This document shows, piece by piece, positions 856 through 20,098 of a DNA stretch of 34,192 nucleotides (positions are counted from its first letter, which is position 1; every line of letters begins with the position of its first letter). Where the stretch lies: the NCBI GenBank assembly GCA_027012955.1, contig JALUYL010000084.1:1-34192 (forward strand), written 5' to 3'. Both the position numbers and the translations under genes were made by a program. Under the pieces are notes generated by a model that had not been told where the DNA came from, did not search any database, and was given only the letters and a program-made list of their open reading frames with translations. The DNA is from Sulfurovum sp. (GTDB lineage Bacteria > Campylobacterota > Campylobacteria > Campylobacterales > Sulfurovaceae).

Positions 856-998
856 AAGTATACAAAAAATATTTGCCTGTCAGATTAAATCAATATATAC
901 TAGATATTTATGAGAGGATAGTGTGTCTTATCAGCACTCCACACCAACCCCACACCACAAACGCTATCATAAATCATAAACAAATTTAGGAGGACATG

Positions 999-3344
999 AT
1001 GGCTCTTATACTCTCTATACTTATCGTTTCTTTGGCGTTGGCATTTTTTGCTGCGCCTTTGTGGGCTTGGTTTTTGGCTTTGGGTGTTTTGTTACTGGGT
1101 ATAGGAGCAGGAGTGCTTTGGTGGGTAGTCGCTGTGGCGCTTGCTTTGCTGTTTTTGCATAGACCTACACGGGTGAAACTCATAACCAATAATCTCTTTA
1201 AGTTTATAGAAAAAAATGGACTCCTCCCTAAGATATCTGAAACAGAAAAGACAGCCCTTCGCGCAGGAGATGTGTGGGTAGAAGGGGAGCTTTTTTCGGG
1301 GAAGCCTGATTTTAAAAAAATCTTTGCCAATCCTTACCCGACACTGAGTCAAGAAGAACAGGACTTCATAGATAACGAGGTGAACGAAGTCTGCGCTATG
1401 ACTTCTGACTGGGAAGTCTTTGAAAAGCGTGATTTGCCAAAAGAGGTGTGGAAGTACCTCAAAGAGAAGAAGTTTCTAGGGATGATCATCCCCAAAGAGC
1501 ATGGAGGTCTTGGGTTCTCTGCCTATGGACACTCTTGTGTCATAGAAAAACTCGCTTCACACTCACAAGTACTTGCCATTACGGTGATGGTACCTAACTC
1601 TCTTGGCCCTGCTGAACTACTCCTGCACTATGGAACAGAGTCACAAAAAGAACACTACCTATCTAGACTGGCTGATGGTCGTGACATCCCTTGTTTTGCA
1701 CTCACAGAACCTGAAGCAGGTTCTGATGCAGGCTCCATACAGTCTGAGGGTGTAGTGTTTAGAGATGAAGATGGAGAGATGAAGATACGTCTGAACTTTG
1801 AGAAGCGTTACATTACCCTCTCTTCCATAGCTACCGTAATAGGGCTTGCATTTGTACTCAAAGACCCTGAAAAACTTTTGGGTAAAGGAGAAGAGTGGGG
1901 CATTACTTGTGCTTTGGTAGATGCAAAGAAAAAAGGCATTGACCAGACACGCCGACATGACCCGTTAAATGTACCGTTTGTCAATGCACCACTTGTGGGT
2001 AAAAATGTCATCATAAGCATAGACGATGTGATAGGTGGAGAGTCAGGGCTTGGTAATGGTTGGCAGATGCTTATGGAGTCTTTGGCTGTGGGGCGTGGTA
2101 TATCGTTGCCAAGTACCAGTACAGGTGGCTCAAAACTTGCTACCTATGTGGCTTCTACCTACTCTGTGGTACGGTATCAGTTTGGGCTTAGCATCGCTAA
2201 GTTTGAGGGTATCGCCGAAGTGCTTGGGCGTTTGGGTGCGAGTACCTATATGCTTGATGCGGCGAAGACCTTTACACTAGGAGCCATCAACGATGGTAAA
2301 AAACCTGCTGTTGCCAATGCCATTATGAAGTACGAGAGCACAGAGATGTTTCGTAAAAATGTACTGGATGCCATGGACATACAAGGTGGAGCATCCATTA
2401 GTAGAGGCCCTCGTAATTTGTTGGCTCATGCGTACTTTGGTGCACCAGTGGCTATCACGGTAGAGGGAGCGAATATTATGACTAGAACGCTCATCATGTT
2501 TGGGCAGGGGATGATACGTTGTCACCCTTATGCCTACTCTCAGATAGAAGCGTTGGAGTCTGGAAATGTGCAGTATTTTGATGATTTGCTCTTTACACAT
2601 ATAGGACATGTGGTACGTAACAAAGCTATAGCATGTGTGATGGGTGTGACACGTGGGTATGCACATGCGACAGTGAGTCAAGGTAAAGCCAGACGGTATG
2701 AACAAAAGCTCGCTTGGGCTTCTGCGAAGTTTGCTTTTTTCTCAGATGTGGCACTAGGGTTATTAGGTGGAACACTCAAACGTAGAGAGTCAGTCTCTGG
2801 ACGTTTTGGTGACATTTTGGCACAGATGTACTTCATCACCGCGGCACTGAAGCGTTTTGAGATTGATGGTCGTCCTAAGAGTGATGAAGTTTTTTTAGAA
2901 GTAGCAGTCGAAGATGCCTTTGGCAAGATAGATGTTGCCTTTAGAGGCATTTTTGAAAACCTTGCGGGAGGTGTACTTGGCATACCGTTTAAACTTATGG
3001 GCTTTTGTACACGGCTGAACCCTATGGGTAAAACCATGAAAGACATAAACCTACATGCCATAGCAAAAGTACTGAGTGAAGATGACGCTGTGAGAGAACG
3101 AGTATGCGGAAACATCTATATGGGTGAGAGACCTACGCAGTTACTAGAAGCTACCCATGCGATGCAGGCGGTTAAAGAACTCTTAGTCAAAGAAAAACAA
3201 GATGAAAAGCTTACGACCAAAGAGACGCGAGAGCTTAAAAGTGCAAGAGCTTTACAAAAAGAGATTATCACAGTAGATAGTTTTAAACATAACGACTACT
3301 TTAGAAAACCAAAAACGGTACGTAAAAGTACTAAAAAGGTTTAA
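999..3344 (+). CDS. fadE: FadE-type acyl-CoA dehydrogenase
   Basis: This is a membrane-associated acyl-CoA dehydrogenase of the FadE type, which oxidises acyl-CoA to trans-2-enoyl-CoA in the first step of beta-oxidation. Residues 1-55 are strongly hydrophobic (two likely membrane spans). The flavin/substrate motif CFALTEPEAGSDAG lies near residue 230-245. The conserved VEGANIMTRTLIMFGQG block near residue 490 carries the expected catalytic Glu. The remaining C-terminal part matches the DUF1974 region specific to FadE. About 780 residues is close to the 814 of E. coli FadE. Two ATGs stand in tandem at 996 and 999. AGGAGG at 988-993 leaves two bases to the first and five to the second, so 999 is preferred. 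It is followed after two bases by an acyltransferase/hydrolase, so the two are surely cotranslated. No thiolase or hydratase gene is in the window, so a full degradation pathway cannot be inferred. Confidence 0.93.
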   Translation: MALILSILIVSLALAFFAAPLWAWFLALGVLLLGIGAGVLWWVVAVALALLFLHRPTRVKLITNNLFKFIEKNGLLPKISETEKTALRAGDVWVEGELFSGKPDFKKIFANPYPTLSQEEQDFIDNEVNEVCAMTSDWEVFEKRDLPKEVWKYLKEKKFLGMIIPKEHGGLGFSAYGHSCVIEKLASHSQVLAITVMVPNSLGPAELLLHYGTESQKEHYLSRLADGRDIPCFALTEPEAGSDAGSIQSEGVVFRDEDGEMKIRLNFEKRYITLSSIATVIGLAFVLKDPEKLLGKGEEWGITCALVDAKKKGIDQTRRHDPLNVPFVNAPLVGKNVIISIDDVIGGESGLGNGWQMLMESLAVGRGISLPSTSTGGSKLATYVASTYSVVRYQFGLSIAKFEGIAEVLGRLGASTYMLDAAKTFTLGAINDGKKPAVANAIMKYESTEMFRKNVLDAMDIQGGASISRGPRNLLAHAYFGAPVAITVEGANIMTRTLIMFGQGMIRCHPYAYSQIEALESGNVQYFDDLLFTHIGHVVRNKAIACVMGVTRGYAHATVSQGKARRYEQKLAWASAKFAFFSDVALGLLGGTLKRRESVSGRFGDILAQMYFITAALKRFEIDGRPKSDEVFLEVAVEDAFGKIDVAFRGIFENLAGGVLGIPFKLMGFCTRLNPMGKTMKDINLHAIAKVLSEDDAVRERVCGNIYMGERPTQLLEATHAMQAVKELLVKEKQDEKLTTKETRELKSARALQKEIITVDSFKHNDYFRKPKTVRKSTKKV

Positions 3345-3346
3345 TC

Positions 3347-5464
3347 ATGCGATTTGCCTTTGCTGTCTCATCTTTAGCCATAGGACTCATACGTAAGTTT
3401 TCTGGAGCCAATATAACGGTAAGTGGTGAGGCATTACCTGAGTCGCCTGTACTCTTCGTAGCAAACCACTTTACACGTTTTGAAACCTTTGTCGTACCAC
3501 ATGTGTTGTATGAAAAGTATGACAGGACTTCACGCTCTTTGGCAGATGACTCTGTGTTTGTGGGAGCATTGGGTAAGTTTATGTTGTGGGTAGGCGCTAT
3601 CTCAAATAAGAGTAAGAACCGAGACTGCATCATAGTTGAGGACTTGCTGTCTGGGAGTGCAGATTGGGTTATCTACCCTGAGGGATATATGGTAAAAAAC
3701 AAACGTATTACCTTTAACTATGGAGAGTTTTTTACCCATTCTCCTGAGTATGAAGGAGCTGTACATACAGGCGCAGCGGTGATGGCACTCAAGGCTAGGA
3801 TTTTGCAAGAAAGAGCCAGACGCAACCATAATGAAACCCTTAAAGACTTTTGTGGAAAGATGGATATAGACAGTAACAAGATAGACAAGTCATTAAGTGT
3901 AAAGATTGTGCCTATTTCCATTACCTACTACCCCATACGACCAGGACGTAACCGTTTTTTAAATTGGGTCGATACGAAGATAAACCAACGTAACAAACGC
4001 CTCTTTGAAGAACTTGAGATAGAAGTAAACCTCCTTATGAACGCACATATGAACATACGTTTTGGTAAACCTATAGCTTTAGATAACTATATGGATGCAC
4101 TCTTGGAGAATGAAGAAGATATCTACGATGAAACAAAAGTAAATGCCTTCATAGATGCCAAACGTAAAGCTCTGACCAATGACATGATGCAACGTGTCTA
4201 CTCACAGATGCAGATACATTTTGACCATATGTTTATCTTATCATTGGTGACGATGCCTACGGTAAAGGTCTGTCCAACATACCTACGTACACTCATCTAC
4301 AAAAATGCGCGTTCTTTACGTGAATTACCAGACCATAATTTGCACAGTGAACTTCAAAGTGAAGTCTTTAAGCTTATACTCGATGAAAATTATGCACCAT
4401 TTGCCTCTGCCATAGAAGTGGCAGTGAAACAAAAGATACTCTACCAAGACAGTGACGGAGAGTATCTTTTTGACAGAAGTTTGCTTGAAAAAGAGTACCC
4501 CTTCCATAAGGTACGGGTAAAAAATACTCTACAAGTCATACTCAATGAAATTAAATGGCAAAAGAACATTGTCAAAATGGCAGAAGAGAACAGTAAATAC
4601 ACAGAAGCAGAGCTTAAACTGGATAACTTTAGACACATCTCAAAACGTTCGTGGAACTACTTTGAACGTGAGTATCAAGAGTATGTGGGTAAAAAACCAC
4701 GCAGAAATAACAAGGGTGCGCCTATCATACTCTTTGATGAAAAGTTTGATATGGGGGTGGTATTTTCGCATGGGTATATGGCAGCACCCAGAGAGATAGC
4801 CACACTTGCAGCGTATTTGTTTGAGAGAGGTATTAATGTGTATGTACCAAGACTTCATGGACATGCCACTGACCCCAAAGCACTGCTGGATGTCACAGCC
4901 AAAGATTGGGAGACAGACTTTGAACGTGCCTTTACTGCCATGCGTCAGGTCTGCTCCAAAGTCTACATCGGTGGTTTCTCTACAGGGGGGCTTATAGCAC
5001 TCATACACGCAGCACAGTACAAGGTAGATGGGGTCATTTCCATCAATGCTGCGCTTAAACTGCAAGACCTGCGTGTAAGCTATGTGGTACCTACCTTACA
5101 TCTCTTTAATGAGATGGTAGCATATCTTAATGCCAAGGGTATCATGGAATGGATAGACAACTCCAAAACAGAACAACCCTTGGTGAACTACCACAAACAC
5201 CCTTTGGCTTCTGTATCACAACTTGAAAAAGTCATGTCCAAAGTCACAAAGTCTCTCAGTAAAGTTACTGCACCTATACTCATCATACAAGGAGACAATG
5301 ATCCTGTGGTAAAACGCGAGAGTGCAAGGCTCATTTATGATGGTGTACGTTCAGAAGAGAAGAAGTTGTTACTCTTACCTCGTGATAGACATAGTATCTT
5401 GGCAGATGAGAAGTGTGAGGAAGTTTTTGAGGCTGTGTTTGGGTTTATTGAGGCTGCTAAATAG
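3347..5464 (+). CDS. Fused PlsC-like acyltransferase and alpha/beta hydrolase
   Basis: This 705-residue protein joins two lipid enzymes. The N-terminal half has the glycerolipid acyltransferase motifs: N40-H41-x4-E46 (the H-x4-acid motif, here with Glu) and Y110-P-E-G113. This predicts acyl transfer to a lysophospholipid or glycerol phosphate at the membrane. The middle (about 260-450) is helical and unassigned. The C-terminal part from about residue 465 is an alpha/beta hydrolase of the serine aminopeptidase/monoglyceride lipase type. It shows an early HGY motif near 475, the nucleophile elbow GFSTGG with Ser545, an Asp in QGDNDPV near 650 and a His in DRHS near 682. The start lies two bases after the fadE stop. 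Its 3' end overlaps the convergent nuclease gene by eight bases. A role in recycling acyl chains between lipids and acyl-CoA is inference. The substrates are unknown. Confidence 0.85.
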   Translation: MRFAFAVSSLAIGLIRKFSGANITVSGEALPESPVLFVANHFTRFETFVVPHVLYEKYDRTSRSLADDSVFVGALGKFMLWVGAISNKSKNRDCIIVEDLLSGSADWVIYPEGYMVKNKRITFNYGEFFTHSPEYEGAVHTGAAVMALKARILQERARRNHNETLKDFCGKMDIDSNKIDKSLSVKIVPISITYYPIRPGRNRFLNWVDTKINQRNKRLFEELEIEVNLLMNAHMNIRFGKPIALDNYMDALLENEEDIYDETKVNAFIDAKRKALTNDMMQRVYSQMQIHFDHMFILSLVTMPTVKVCPTYLRTLIYKNARSLRELPDHNLHSELQSEVFKLILDENYAPFASAIEVAVKQKILYQDSDGEYLFDRSLLEKEYPFHKVRVKNTLQVILNEIKWQKNIVKMAEENSKYTEAELKLDNFRHISKRSWNYFEREYQEYVGKKPRRNNKGAPIILFDEKFDMGVVFSHGYMAAPREIATLAAYLFERGINVYVPRLHGHATDPKALLDVTAKDWETDFERAFTAMRQVCSKVYIGGFSTGGLIALIHAAQYKVDGVISINAALKLQDLRVSYVVPTLHLFNEMVAYLNAKGIMEWIDNSKTEQPLVNYHKHPLASVSQLEKVMSKVTKSLSKVTAPILIIQGDNDPVVKRESARLIYDGVRSEEKKLLLLPRDRHSILADEKCEEVFEAVFGFIEAAK

Positions 5465-6386
5465 TTGGCATTTTGACTATTTCGTAATCAACTCTTTTCC
5501 CTATTTTTTTCATTTCATCAATATGTTTAATGGCAGATTGATGTATGAAGTCTCCTGAGATAGTATATCTTGCTGTTAATAGACAACTTCTAAGTAATGG
5601 CTTATCTTCTACGAAAGTTCTTGCATCAGTTTGAAACGCTTTAATATCTTTATGCTCAATTTTCCACTTTCCATTTTCATTCCAGTTTTTGCATTGAATG
5701 AGTACGATTTCTTTTTCTTTTTTTGCAATTAAATCAATGCCATGGTCAAGTACGCCTTGTTGCTTACCATATTCACTGACATGATAGCCTCGTGAACGAT
5801 ATACTTTTGCTACATATTCTTCGTATTCTCGACCTTTATTTATCTTCTCCTCATGAGTTGTTTTATGATTACAATTTATAGGATTTTTTAATATTGTTTC
5901 TTGTCTTTTTCGTTCTTGATAAATTTTTTCTTCTGTATTTTGTTTTGTTTGATTTTTAAATTTCTGAGTGAGTGCTTCATTTTCAAGAATATCATCTTCC
6001 CACAATACATATTTCATTTTACTTTGCGCATTATATTTTTGTCTTGCACCATTAAAATTACCTTTTATTGTTGAGAGTATCCATTTTTCCTTGATTTCTA
6101 TCCACTCTAATTTTTGAAAAATTTGATTAATATTTTTTTGTGTAGTTTTAAAATGTCTAGCTACCTCTTTCGTTGTAATTAAGTCACCTACAACTTGATT
6201 GTATTGTTGTTTATATTCATGTTGTGACTTGTATGATTTCTGATGACTTTTTGTGGGTGTATCTTTCCAACTCTCATTGTAGGGTTTATGAAATGGTTTT
6301 TTAGTGGATGGCATACGATTTTTAGTAGTTTTTATATACATAGTAATGGATGCTATAATGATAATTAAAAGGGTAAATTCGAACAT
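5457..6386 (-). CDS. Membrane-anchored Mrr-like restriction endonuclease
   Basis: The 309-residue protein starts with a single membrane span (residues 4-18). A highly charged linker follows, then a helix-turn-helix-like segment (about 68-135) resembling the C-terminal domain of phage antirepressors. The C-terminal domain is of the Mrr type (PD-(D/E)XK superfamily): E187/E189 in a KGREYEEYVA helix, the GIDLIA strand with Asp218, and Q231-C-K233. These are the expected catalytic residues of a DNA-cleaving nuclease. No methyltransferase is nearby, so it could be a methyl-directed nuclease or a DNA-processing enzyme facing the cytoplasm from the membrane. It is Lys/Asn/Ile-rich and more AT-rich than flanking genes, which suggests horizontal transfer. 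It overlaps the upstream convergent gene by eight bases. Fold confidence is good; target and role are unknown. Confidence 0.8.
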   Translation of the reverse strand: MFEFTLLIIIIASITMYIKTTKNRMPSTKKPFHKPYNESWKDTPTKSHQKSYKSQHEYKQQYNQVVGDLITTKEVARHFKTTQKNINQIFQKLEWIEIKEKWILSTIKGNFNGARQKYNAQSKMKYVLWEDDILENEALTQKFKNQTKQNTEEKIYQERKRQETILKNPINCNHKTTHEEKINKGREYEEYVAKVYRSRGYHVSEYGKQQGVLDHGIDLIAKKEKEIVLIQCKNWNENGKWKIEHKDIKAFQTDARTFVEDKPLLRSCLLTARYTISGDFIHQSAIKHIDEMKKIGKRVDYEIVKMPTI

Positions 6387-18649: not shown

Positions 18650-19015
18650 TTATATCAAATCGATATTTTTGATGTATTTAAAATCTTTGACATTATAGGT
18701 AAATAATTTGTATTTTCCTACCAATGCAGTTGAGGCTATGAGGCTATCGGGTATATCTAGGGTGTGACTTTTGGCATAGGTCTTTACAAGTTTGGTAGCT
18801 TGTGTAGATATGTTTTCATTTAGCTGTACAATGTAAAAGAGAGAAACAAACTTTTCAAGTTTGTTTAATTCAGCTTTGTTCAGTGCACCATAGTAAAGTT
18901 CCATGACTGTGATGGATGATATGGCAAGTGTTATATTGAAGCTTTGTACTTTATCTATGGTATTTTGATTGCCTTTTAGTATCTCTATAAGGACATTGGT
19001 ATCTAACAGTATCAT
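18650..19015 (-). CDS. vapC: PIN-domain toxin (VapC family)
   Basis: A 121-residue PIN-domain ribonuclease, the toxin of a type II toxin-antitoxin pair. The acidic active-site residues are in place: Asp5 (ILLDTNVLIEIL), Glu39 (VMELYYGA), Asp90 (LDIPDSLIAST) and Asp111 (NVKDF). Its ATG overlaps the antitoxin stop in an ATGA arrangement, which ensures coupled translation. The likely target is a tRNA or rRNA loop, by family analogy. It looks intact. Housekeeping-like genes follow within 14 bases, so they may share the antitoxin-controlled promoter. Confidence 0.9.
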   Translation of the reverse strand: MILLDTNVLIEILKGNQNTIDKVQSFNITLAISSITVMELYYGALNKAELNKLEKFVSLFYIVQLNENISTQATKLVKTYAKSHTLDIPDSLIASTALVGKYKLFTYNVKDFKYIKNIDLI

Positions 19016-19236
19016 TTCCAGGCTTGCTCTCTTAGACTCTCTTGTGTCGTATCTCTATCTTCCCACATACCTGAAAACTGAGAAAAATCATTAGATTGAG
19101 GTTTATTCTTTTTTTCTTGTAGGTCTTTTTTGAGTGTGTCACGTATATAAGCTGAGAGAGAAATACCTAAGGTATTGGCTTGAGACTTAAGCTCTTCAAA
19201 AAGTGACTCTTCAAAATATATTTGTGTTCTGTGCAT
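19012..19236 (-). CDS. vapB: Ribbon-helix-helix antitoxin (VapB-like)
   Basis: The 74-residue protein begins MHRTQIYFEESLFEELKSQA, a ribbon-helix-helix DNA-binding domain (strand 3-8, helices about 11-20 and 26-40). An acidic tail around SQFSGMWEDRD wraps the toxin in such systems. The frame is open upstream into the REP region up to 19491, but that part is repeat-derived. The ATG at 19236 fits the domain boundary (an ATG at 19266 is a weaker option with no ribosome-binding site). As in other pairs it should repress its own promoter, which would then lie in 19240-19330 next to the REP cluster. Confidence 0.85.
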   Translation of the reverse strand: MHRTQIYFEESLFEELKSQANTLGISLSAYIRDTLKKDLQEKKNKPQSNDFSQFSGMWEDRDTTQESLREQAWK

Positions 19237-19400
19237 CTTTTGTTCCCATACATCATATTTATACATTACTATAGCATAAATTGGGTTTGATGTAAAGAGA
19301 ATGTATTGGTCTACACATATGGCAATAACGTTGATTTGGTGCGATGGCATACCCCAAGGGCATTTCCGTTGGGCATCACGTTGATTTGGTATGTTGATTC

Positions 19401-19489
19401 GGTGCGATGGCAATCGCCCCCTACACCATTTGATGATGTATAAAATTGTATCTGCATAAACACCCGTAGGGGGCGATTGCCATCGCACC
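19401..19489. repeat. REP pair (24-bp perfect inverted repeat), left cluster
   Basis: Left arm 19401-19424 and right arm 19466-19489 are exact reverse complements over 24 bases with a 41-base loop. Each arm contains its own small hairpin, GCGAT-TGCC-ATCGC in the right arm, headed by GTAG, the tetranucleotide expected for REP elements recognised by RAYT proteins. So this is two REPs facing each other (BIME-like). Confidence 0.85.
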
Positions 19490-19572
19490 AATAAAAATGT
19501 ACATGAAACAAAAATATCACATCCTCAATCGCACCAATACAAATATGCATAAAACAAAATATCACATCCTCA
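19483..19572. repeat. Tandem direct repeat, two units of about 45 bp
   Basis: The stretch beginning TCGCACCAAT and ending ATCACATCCTCAA occurs at 19483-19527 and again at 19529-19572 with few changes. A third, more diverged copy follows the right REP cluster at 20244-20285. Confidence 0.7.
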
Positions 19573-19648
19573 ACATACCCAAAACCTAAAAACATGACAA
19601 TTTGCCATATTTTTAACCCCATCTAAATAAACCTGCCATAATACACCT

Positions 19649-20098
19649 ATGGCAAATTATAAACGCATATTTCTTGATGGCTACAGCTACTACATTACCA
19701 TGGTTACGCATAAACGTAATCCTATACTTGTAGATAATATAGAAGCCTTACGAGAGAGTTTTCATGAGAGCAAACGGTATTACCACTACAGTATAGATGC
19801 CATAGTCGTGCTACCTGACCATTTACATATGATAATTACACCCAAGAAAGCCAAGGATTACCCTAAAATTGTGAGGGCAATCAAATATAATTTTTCTATC
19901 AAAATAATACACAACGAAGAACAATCAACAGCACGACATAAAAAAGGAATGAATCCTGTGTGGCAAAAACGCTATTATGAACATACTATAAGAGATGAAA
20001 AAGATTATCTACGTTGTTTGGAATACATACAAAATAATCCGATGAATCATGGGTTGGTTGATGATAGCAAAGATTGGGAATATATGTTTGCGTTTTGA
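19649..20098 (+). CDS. REP-associated tyrosine transposase (RAYT, Y1_Tnp)
   Basis: A 149-residue HUH endonuclease of the IS200/IS605-like Y1 family that acts on REP hairpins. The metal-binding H58-L-H60 sits in VVLPDHLHMII. The helix near the C-terminus, EYIQNNPMNHGLV, carries the likely catalytic Tyr126 in the YIxxNP context typical of RAYTs. The protein begins YKRIFLDGYSYYITMVTHKR, the usual first strand. It appears intact and full length. No strong ribosome-binding site precedes the ATG, so expression may be low. The stop codon lies where the right repeat copy begins. Confidence 0.92.
   Translation: MANYKRIFLDGYSYYITMVTHKRNPILVDNIEALRESFHESKRYYHYSIDAIVVLPDHLHMIITPKKAKDYPKIVRAIKYNFSIKIIHNEEQSTARHKKGMNPVWQKRYYEHTIRDEKDYLRCLEYIQNNPMNHGLVDDSKDWEYMFAF

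Follow-up and report, generated by a model that had tools for sequence, protein, structure and literature searches.

Fatty-acid oxidation pathways built around acyl-CoA dehydrogenases are classically assumed to use ETF as the electron acceptor. For the FadE of E. coli, the use of ETF has been described as unsettled (PMC11495604; PMC9329746), and according to a review E. coli has no identified ETF on which its growth on fatty acids depends. Within the wider group of organisms considered here, fatty-acid oxidation has been reported for one Arcobacteraceae clade (PMC11265409), while a search for literature on beta-oxidation in Sulfurovum, or on the fusion protein described below, returned nothing on point as judged by title and abstract.

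The stretch of DNA that we analysed (34,192 nt, hereafter the window) covers positions 1 to 34,192 of the forward strand of contig JALUYL010000084.1 in the Sulfurovum sp. assembly GCA_027012955.1, a draft genome of a marine sulfur oxidiser that is 75.8% complete and split into 110 contigs. In agreement with the original prediction, ORFs, Pfam and NCBIfam place a FadE-type dehydrogenase gene two bases upstream of a gene coding for an acyltransferase-lipase fusion (Table 1). The other genes of the window have housekeeping or unrelated functions according to Pfam and NCBIfam (YceG, YhdP, SecA, RpoD, LeuB, GlyS, an RND pump and others). One of these neighbours, a gene for an Mrr-type restriction endonuclease domain protein (5457-6386, minus strand), converges on the fusion gene and overlaps its end by 8 bases; further downstream, an IS200-type transposase gene (19649-20098) lies near a PIN-domain gene (18650-19015), together spanning 18650-20098.

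Table 1. Features of the fadE-fusion locus, in window coordinates
Feature	Position	Strand	Basis
AGGAGG ribosome-binding site of fadE	988..993	+	Sequence; 5 nt upstream of ATG 999
fadE, FadE-type acyl-CoA dehydrogenase, 781 aa (predicted)	999..3344	+	Pfam, NCBIfam, homologues, model, fold search
Hydrophobic N-terminal stretch of FadE	999..1157	+	Hydropathy in 19 homologues; model helices 2-16, 21-34, 39-53
E489 of FadE, VEGAN motif	2463..2465	+	Invariant in homologues
ACDH_C, bacterial-type C-terminal domain of FadE	2514..3284	+	PF09317, 210 bits
Acyltransferase-lipase fusion, 705 aa (predicted)	3347..5464	+	ORF, Pfam, homologues, model
PlsC-like acyltransferase domain, residues 23-150	3413..3796	+	PF01553, 28.4 bits (cut-off 23)
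H41-x4-E46 motif (HFTRFE)	3467..3484	+	H41 and E46 invariant in 19 homologues
YPEG motif, residues 110-113	3674..3685	+	PEG invariant
Helical middle region, about residues 241-455	4067..4711	+	Predicted structure
Alpha/beta hydrolase domain, monoacylglycerol-lipase type, residues 471-688	4757..5410	+	PF12146, 81 bits (cut-off 27); sequence and fold
GFSTGG nucleophile elbow with Ser545	4973..4990	+	S545 invariant
Catalytic Asp652 (predicted)	5300..5302	+	Invariant; aligns with lipase Asp
Catalytic His682 (predicted)	5390..5392	+	Invariant; aligns with lipase His

The first gene encodes a predicted full-length FadE-type acyl-CoA dehydrogenase. Its ACAD N, M and C domains and its ACDH_C domain all score above the Pfam cut-offs, the FadE-type NCBIfam models are exceeded by far (919 bits against a cut-off of 600), and ACAD9 and VLCAD are among the closest structures in the fold search. 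In-frame ATG codons are present at both 996 and 999, and we prefer the latter as the start because it is favoured by the spacing to the AGGAGG element. The protein shares with E. coli-type FadE (PRK09463 / PRK13026, NF038187) its size, the hydrophobic N-terminus, the ACAD core and ACDH_C; it scores well above the cut-offs of PRK09463 and PRK13026 but below the enterobacterial exception model NF038187 (783 versus 1300 bits). Unlike its E. coli-type counterpart, it is followed by the fusion and occurs in genomes without detectable ETF. Hydropathy and the structural model suggest that the N-terminus likely mediates membrane association, and E489 is presumed to be the catalytic base, given its motif and its position in the ACAD C-terminal domain.

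The second gene encodes a PlsC-like acyltransferase joined to a monoacylglycerol-lipase-type hydrolase, both activities being predicted. As the original prediction had suggested should be done, the two domains were modelled: in the model (pLDDT 80.6, pTM 0.81) the N-terminal part resembles an acyltransferase, the middle is helical and an alpha/beta hydrolase follows. The hydrolase has the predicted alpha/beta hydrolase fold and the Ser-Asp-His triad of bacterial monoacylglycerol lipases, and these enzymes are its best matches both by sequence profile (1.5e-48, with the triad aligned) and in the fold search (E 4e-20, TM about 0.8-0.9 of the target). With LipS and the monoacylglycerol lipases of Bacillus sp. 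H257 and Geobacillus sp. 12AMOR it shares fold, triad and approximately 25% identity over some 250 aa; those lipases, however, are single-domain chains of about 250-290 aa, whereas here the lipase is the C-terminal third of a 705-aa protein.

The acyltransferase part is divergent. It passes the PF01553 gathering cut-off, with one homologue (L031) falling just short at 22.5 bits, and its NH-x4-acid and PEG motifs follow the same order as in PlsC/AGPAT enzymes (PF01553; T. maritima PlsC, 5KYM), from which it differs in its low score, its helical extension and the presence of HX4E in place of HX4D. The fusion thus lacks the strict HX4D motif, and all of its homologues have HX4E; profile comparison with T. 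maritima PlsC is weak (E 0.037) and places E46 opposite the usual Asp. Since HX4E/D motifs have been discussed for LpxM-type acyltransferases (PMC6286764), this substitution does not by itself imply lost activity. No Pfam family above cut-off and no solved structure matched the middle region; a PlsB-like C-terminal domain was considered for it but is not claimed, the GPAT_C match being weak and sub-threshold (E 0.016). Aas-type fusions likewise join a PlsC-like domain to another lipid enzyme, and weak PRK08633 matches were seen in 6 of 11 members; in Aas, however, the partner is an AMP-binding synthetase, and here, where Pfam gave no match to an AMP-binding domain, it is a lipase.

Both catalytic sets that had been read from the sequence hold up in homologues: H41, E46, P111-E112-G113, S545, D652 and H682 are invariant in 19/19 aligned fusion proteins. 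The homologues come from many Sulfurovum species and from three further families of the order, so that the fadE-fusion pair is kept across four families. Wherever an examined locus contains complete copies of the two genes, the fusion lies directly 3' of fadE, as anticipated, with a spacing of -4 to about +20 bases. Comparison with the closest homologue (96% identical) gave dN 0.021 and dS 0.489, i.e. a dN/dS of about 0.04, and the ratio is low in all three regions of the protein, including that of the acyltransferase: the fusion is under strong purifying selection. Pairwise distances of FadE and of the fusion are closely correlated (r = 0.985, 171 pairs). Given the dN/dS value and the conservation in four families, the pairing of the two genes is not a product of chance.

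The divergence of the acyltransferase domain (28 bits, HX4E) and the broad substrate range of the alpha/beta hydrolase family would suit another function, in which the hydrolase acts against acyl-CoA overload, as a thioesterase on acyl-CoA or as a detoxifying esterase, while the acyltransferase is structural or vestigial. We regard this as distinctly unlikely, as neither catalytic set varies across the four families, the acyltransferase region is itself under purifying selection and the closest solved relatives of the hydrolase are monoacylglycerol lipases.

A search on plasmids gave no full-length match to the fusion, the hits being mostly free-standing hydrolases. The genome-wide pattern scan for the fusion found one contig outside the phylum (L028:1-10362, GC 44%, labelled Desulfocapsa), on which a ligase end, fadI, fadJ, fadE and the fusion are followed by a PAS-type histidine kinase gene. 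Here fadE and the fusion are each broken into two overlapping frames; the contig may represent cross-phylum transfer, misbinning or an assembly error.

No thiolase or hydratase is encoded in the window, as Pfam and NCBIfam scans confirmed, but the original prediction was mistaken to extend this to the function of the pair, since both enzymes are found elsewhere in the same genome. Intact fadI and fadJ genes lie on contig C88 and a ligase gene (fadD, 65%-identical) on contig C14, which completes a beta-oxidation set. These names are given by homology: as in the FadI/FadJ complex that works with FadD, there are a clear thiolase, multifunctional FadJ homologues and an acyl-CoA ligase, with scores that fall below the gammaproteobacterial equivalog cut-offs. 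In relatives, both within the genus and in other families of the order, the genes stand together in the order fadD-fadI-fadJ-fadE-fusion. In a locus of the same genus (L029) and in five others (L032-L036), fadE and the fusion are preceded by genes for a ligase (~570-590 aa), a thiolase (~430 aa) and a multifunctional protein (~710-725 aa), in that order, the genes of L032 and L034-L036 being identified by size and position. For the first three genes of L029, the NCBIfam assignments are fatty-acid-CoA-ligase-like, thiolase of FadI/FadA type and FadJ; L031 holds the last four genes of the module (thiolase, multifunctional protein, fadE and fusion), and other Sulfurovum loci have FadJ-like genes upstream of fadE according to NCBIfam.

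In the genome under study the window, C88 and C14 are three separate contigs, and no overlap was found between C88 and the left end of the window. On C88 (L041:1-6810), a 122-bp sequence near one end has an inverted copy at the opposite end, and next to fadI-fadJ there are repeats of ~85 bp; these repeats may explain the breakage of the module over contigs. In some species the splitting is real, as in a single-contig relative (G221) fadJ sits about 13 kb from fadE. G225, another genome with the module, is likewise a single contig. Elsewhere in the genome (L090, contig C95:14983-17437) a gene for a FadL-type outer-membrane protein directly precedes an AMP-binding ligase-like gene. FadL was considered as a marker of the module and dropped, because it showed no correlation with FadE: it is found in most Sulfurovum tested, FadE-positive and FadE-negative alike, and in none of the four FadE-positive genomes of family f6.

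These results bear directly on the earlier proposal that FadE and the fusion serve to desaturate or remodel membrane lipids instead of degrading fatty acids. Such a role would fit the lack of thiolase and hydratase genes in the window and the separation of fadE from fadIJ in this assembly, and the acyltransferase could act on membrane lipids. FadE-type enzymes, however, make 2-enoyl-CoA, which belongs to beta-oxidation and is not the kind of double bond found in membranes. The intact fadD, fadI and fadJ of the same genome and the single operon of relatives rule out remodelling as the main reading, and the exact co-occurrence with FadJ described below argues in the same direction, leaving it in our judgement highly improbable. 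Of the findings named beforehand as speaking against the proposal, a complete beta-oxidation set was thus found, whereas neither relocation of the fusion away from fadE in relatives nor loss of active-site residues was seen. The other half of the proposal, a transfer of acyl chains between lipids and acyl-CoA by the fusion, is still plausible.

Distribution across genomes supports assignment to beta-oxidation. Of 249 genomes sampled from the class, nine have a full-length FadE, and FadJ and the fusion occur in precisely those nine, as expected if few members of the group degrade fatty acids. In a sample of 78 genomes of the genus, the fusion and FadJ occur together in 22; one more genome has the fusion without FadJ and two have FadJ without the fusion, these three exceptions being assemblies of 230-310 contigs. 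Fisher tests gave p of about 1e-16 (class) and about 4e-16 (genus), values that are not corrected for shared ancestry. As judged from gene content and order, the fadE-fusion pair closes a predicted beta-oxidation module, rare in the phylum and carried by a minority of Campylobacterales.

Using PF01012, which covers both subunits, we searched for ETF in 16 and then 38 genomes. The family, and with it the ETF of the classical scheme, was not found in any of the 29 fusion-bearing genomes, our own included (the set contains G000, G221, G225, G122, G165, G186, G203, G207 and G241); FadE was searched for directly in the nine class genomes and is inferred in the other 20 from linkage, which most of their loci show. 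The nine FadE-bearing genomes of the class all belong to this set, eight of them at least 99% complete and with FadE and FadJ confirmed. ETF was likewise not found by PF01012 in two genomes with FadJ only. Ten of 14 controls were positive, and the family was found in five other class genomes, all with short acyl-CoA dehydrogenases, where ETF pairs lie within about 10 kb of the short dehydrogenase genes and of a hydratase gene. Genomes with FadE are not the only ones without ETF: it is also missing from several genomes of the class whose acyl-CoA dehydrogenases are short. The pattern is therefore supportive, though not proof, of a FadE that does not need ETF. Because the tested genomes have no detectable ETF, FadE probably passes electrons directly to the membrane quinone pool, oxygen being a less likely acceptor. 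The quinone of the phylum is generally held to be menaquinone; if it is so here, the low potential of menaquinone would make direct reduction by FadE slightly uphill.

Taken together, we consider it rather probable that the pair forms the last two genes of a fadD-fadI-fadJ-fadE-fusion module in which the fusion apportions acyl chains and FadE passes on electrons without ETF. By homology, FadD would make acyl-CoA, which FadE would oxidise at the membrane before FadJ and FadI complete the cycle; fatty-acid degradation by this pathway in the cell is what we infer from the gene set. The fusion would set the sharing of acyl chains between lipid and oxidation: its lipase could cleave esters resembling monoacylglycerols or lysolipids and so supply FadD with fatty acids, and its acyltransferase could return surplus acyl-CoA to a glycerol or lysolipid acceptor. 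The fusion would thus probably connect FadE both to the hydrolysis of lipids and to the re-esterification of acyl-CoA. Against the proposal speak the divergent acyltransferase domain (28 bits; HX4E and not HX4D), the lack of a known relative for the middle region and the distribution of the module over three contigs in an incomplete assembly, which makes co-regulation here only putative. A specific supply of exogenous fatty acids is not supported, as the FadL pattern does not follow that of FadE. More tentatively, the system might represent FadE-dependent beta-oxidation without ETF, in which membrane-associated FadE reduces quinone directly and the fusion is its dedicated partner, supplying it from lipids and returning surplus acyl chains.

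The same two activities in one chain, the likeness of the lipase to monoacylglycerol lipases and the constant link between fusion and FadE would also be expected of a storage cycle, in which acyl-CoA is turned into a neutral or storage lipid by the acyltransferase, the lipase mobilises this lipid again and beta-oxidation is the sink. A single PlsC-like domain alone would not make triacylglycerol, however, and to our knowledge no storage lipid has been described in these bacteria, so we think such a cycle unlikely.

The fusion stands out as an uncharacterised two-domain lipid enzyme that occurs one-to-one with FadE in the class sample. Owing to this tie, it would mark out the few fat oxidisers in a group whose members are known rather for living on sulfur and hydrogen. 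Finally, the genomes that are at least 99% complete and contain FadE, FadJ and the fusion with no detectable ETF point to natural test organisms for FadE function.
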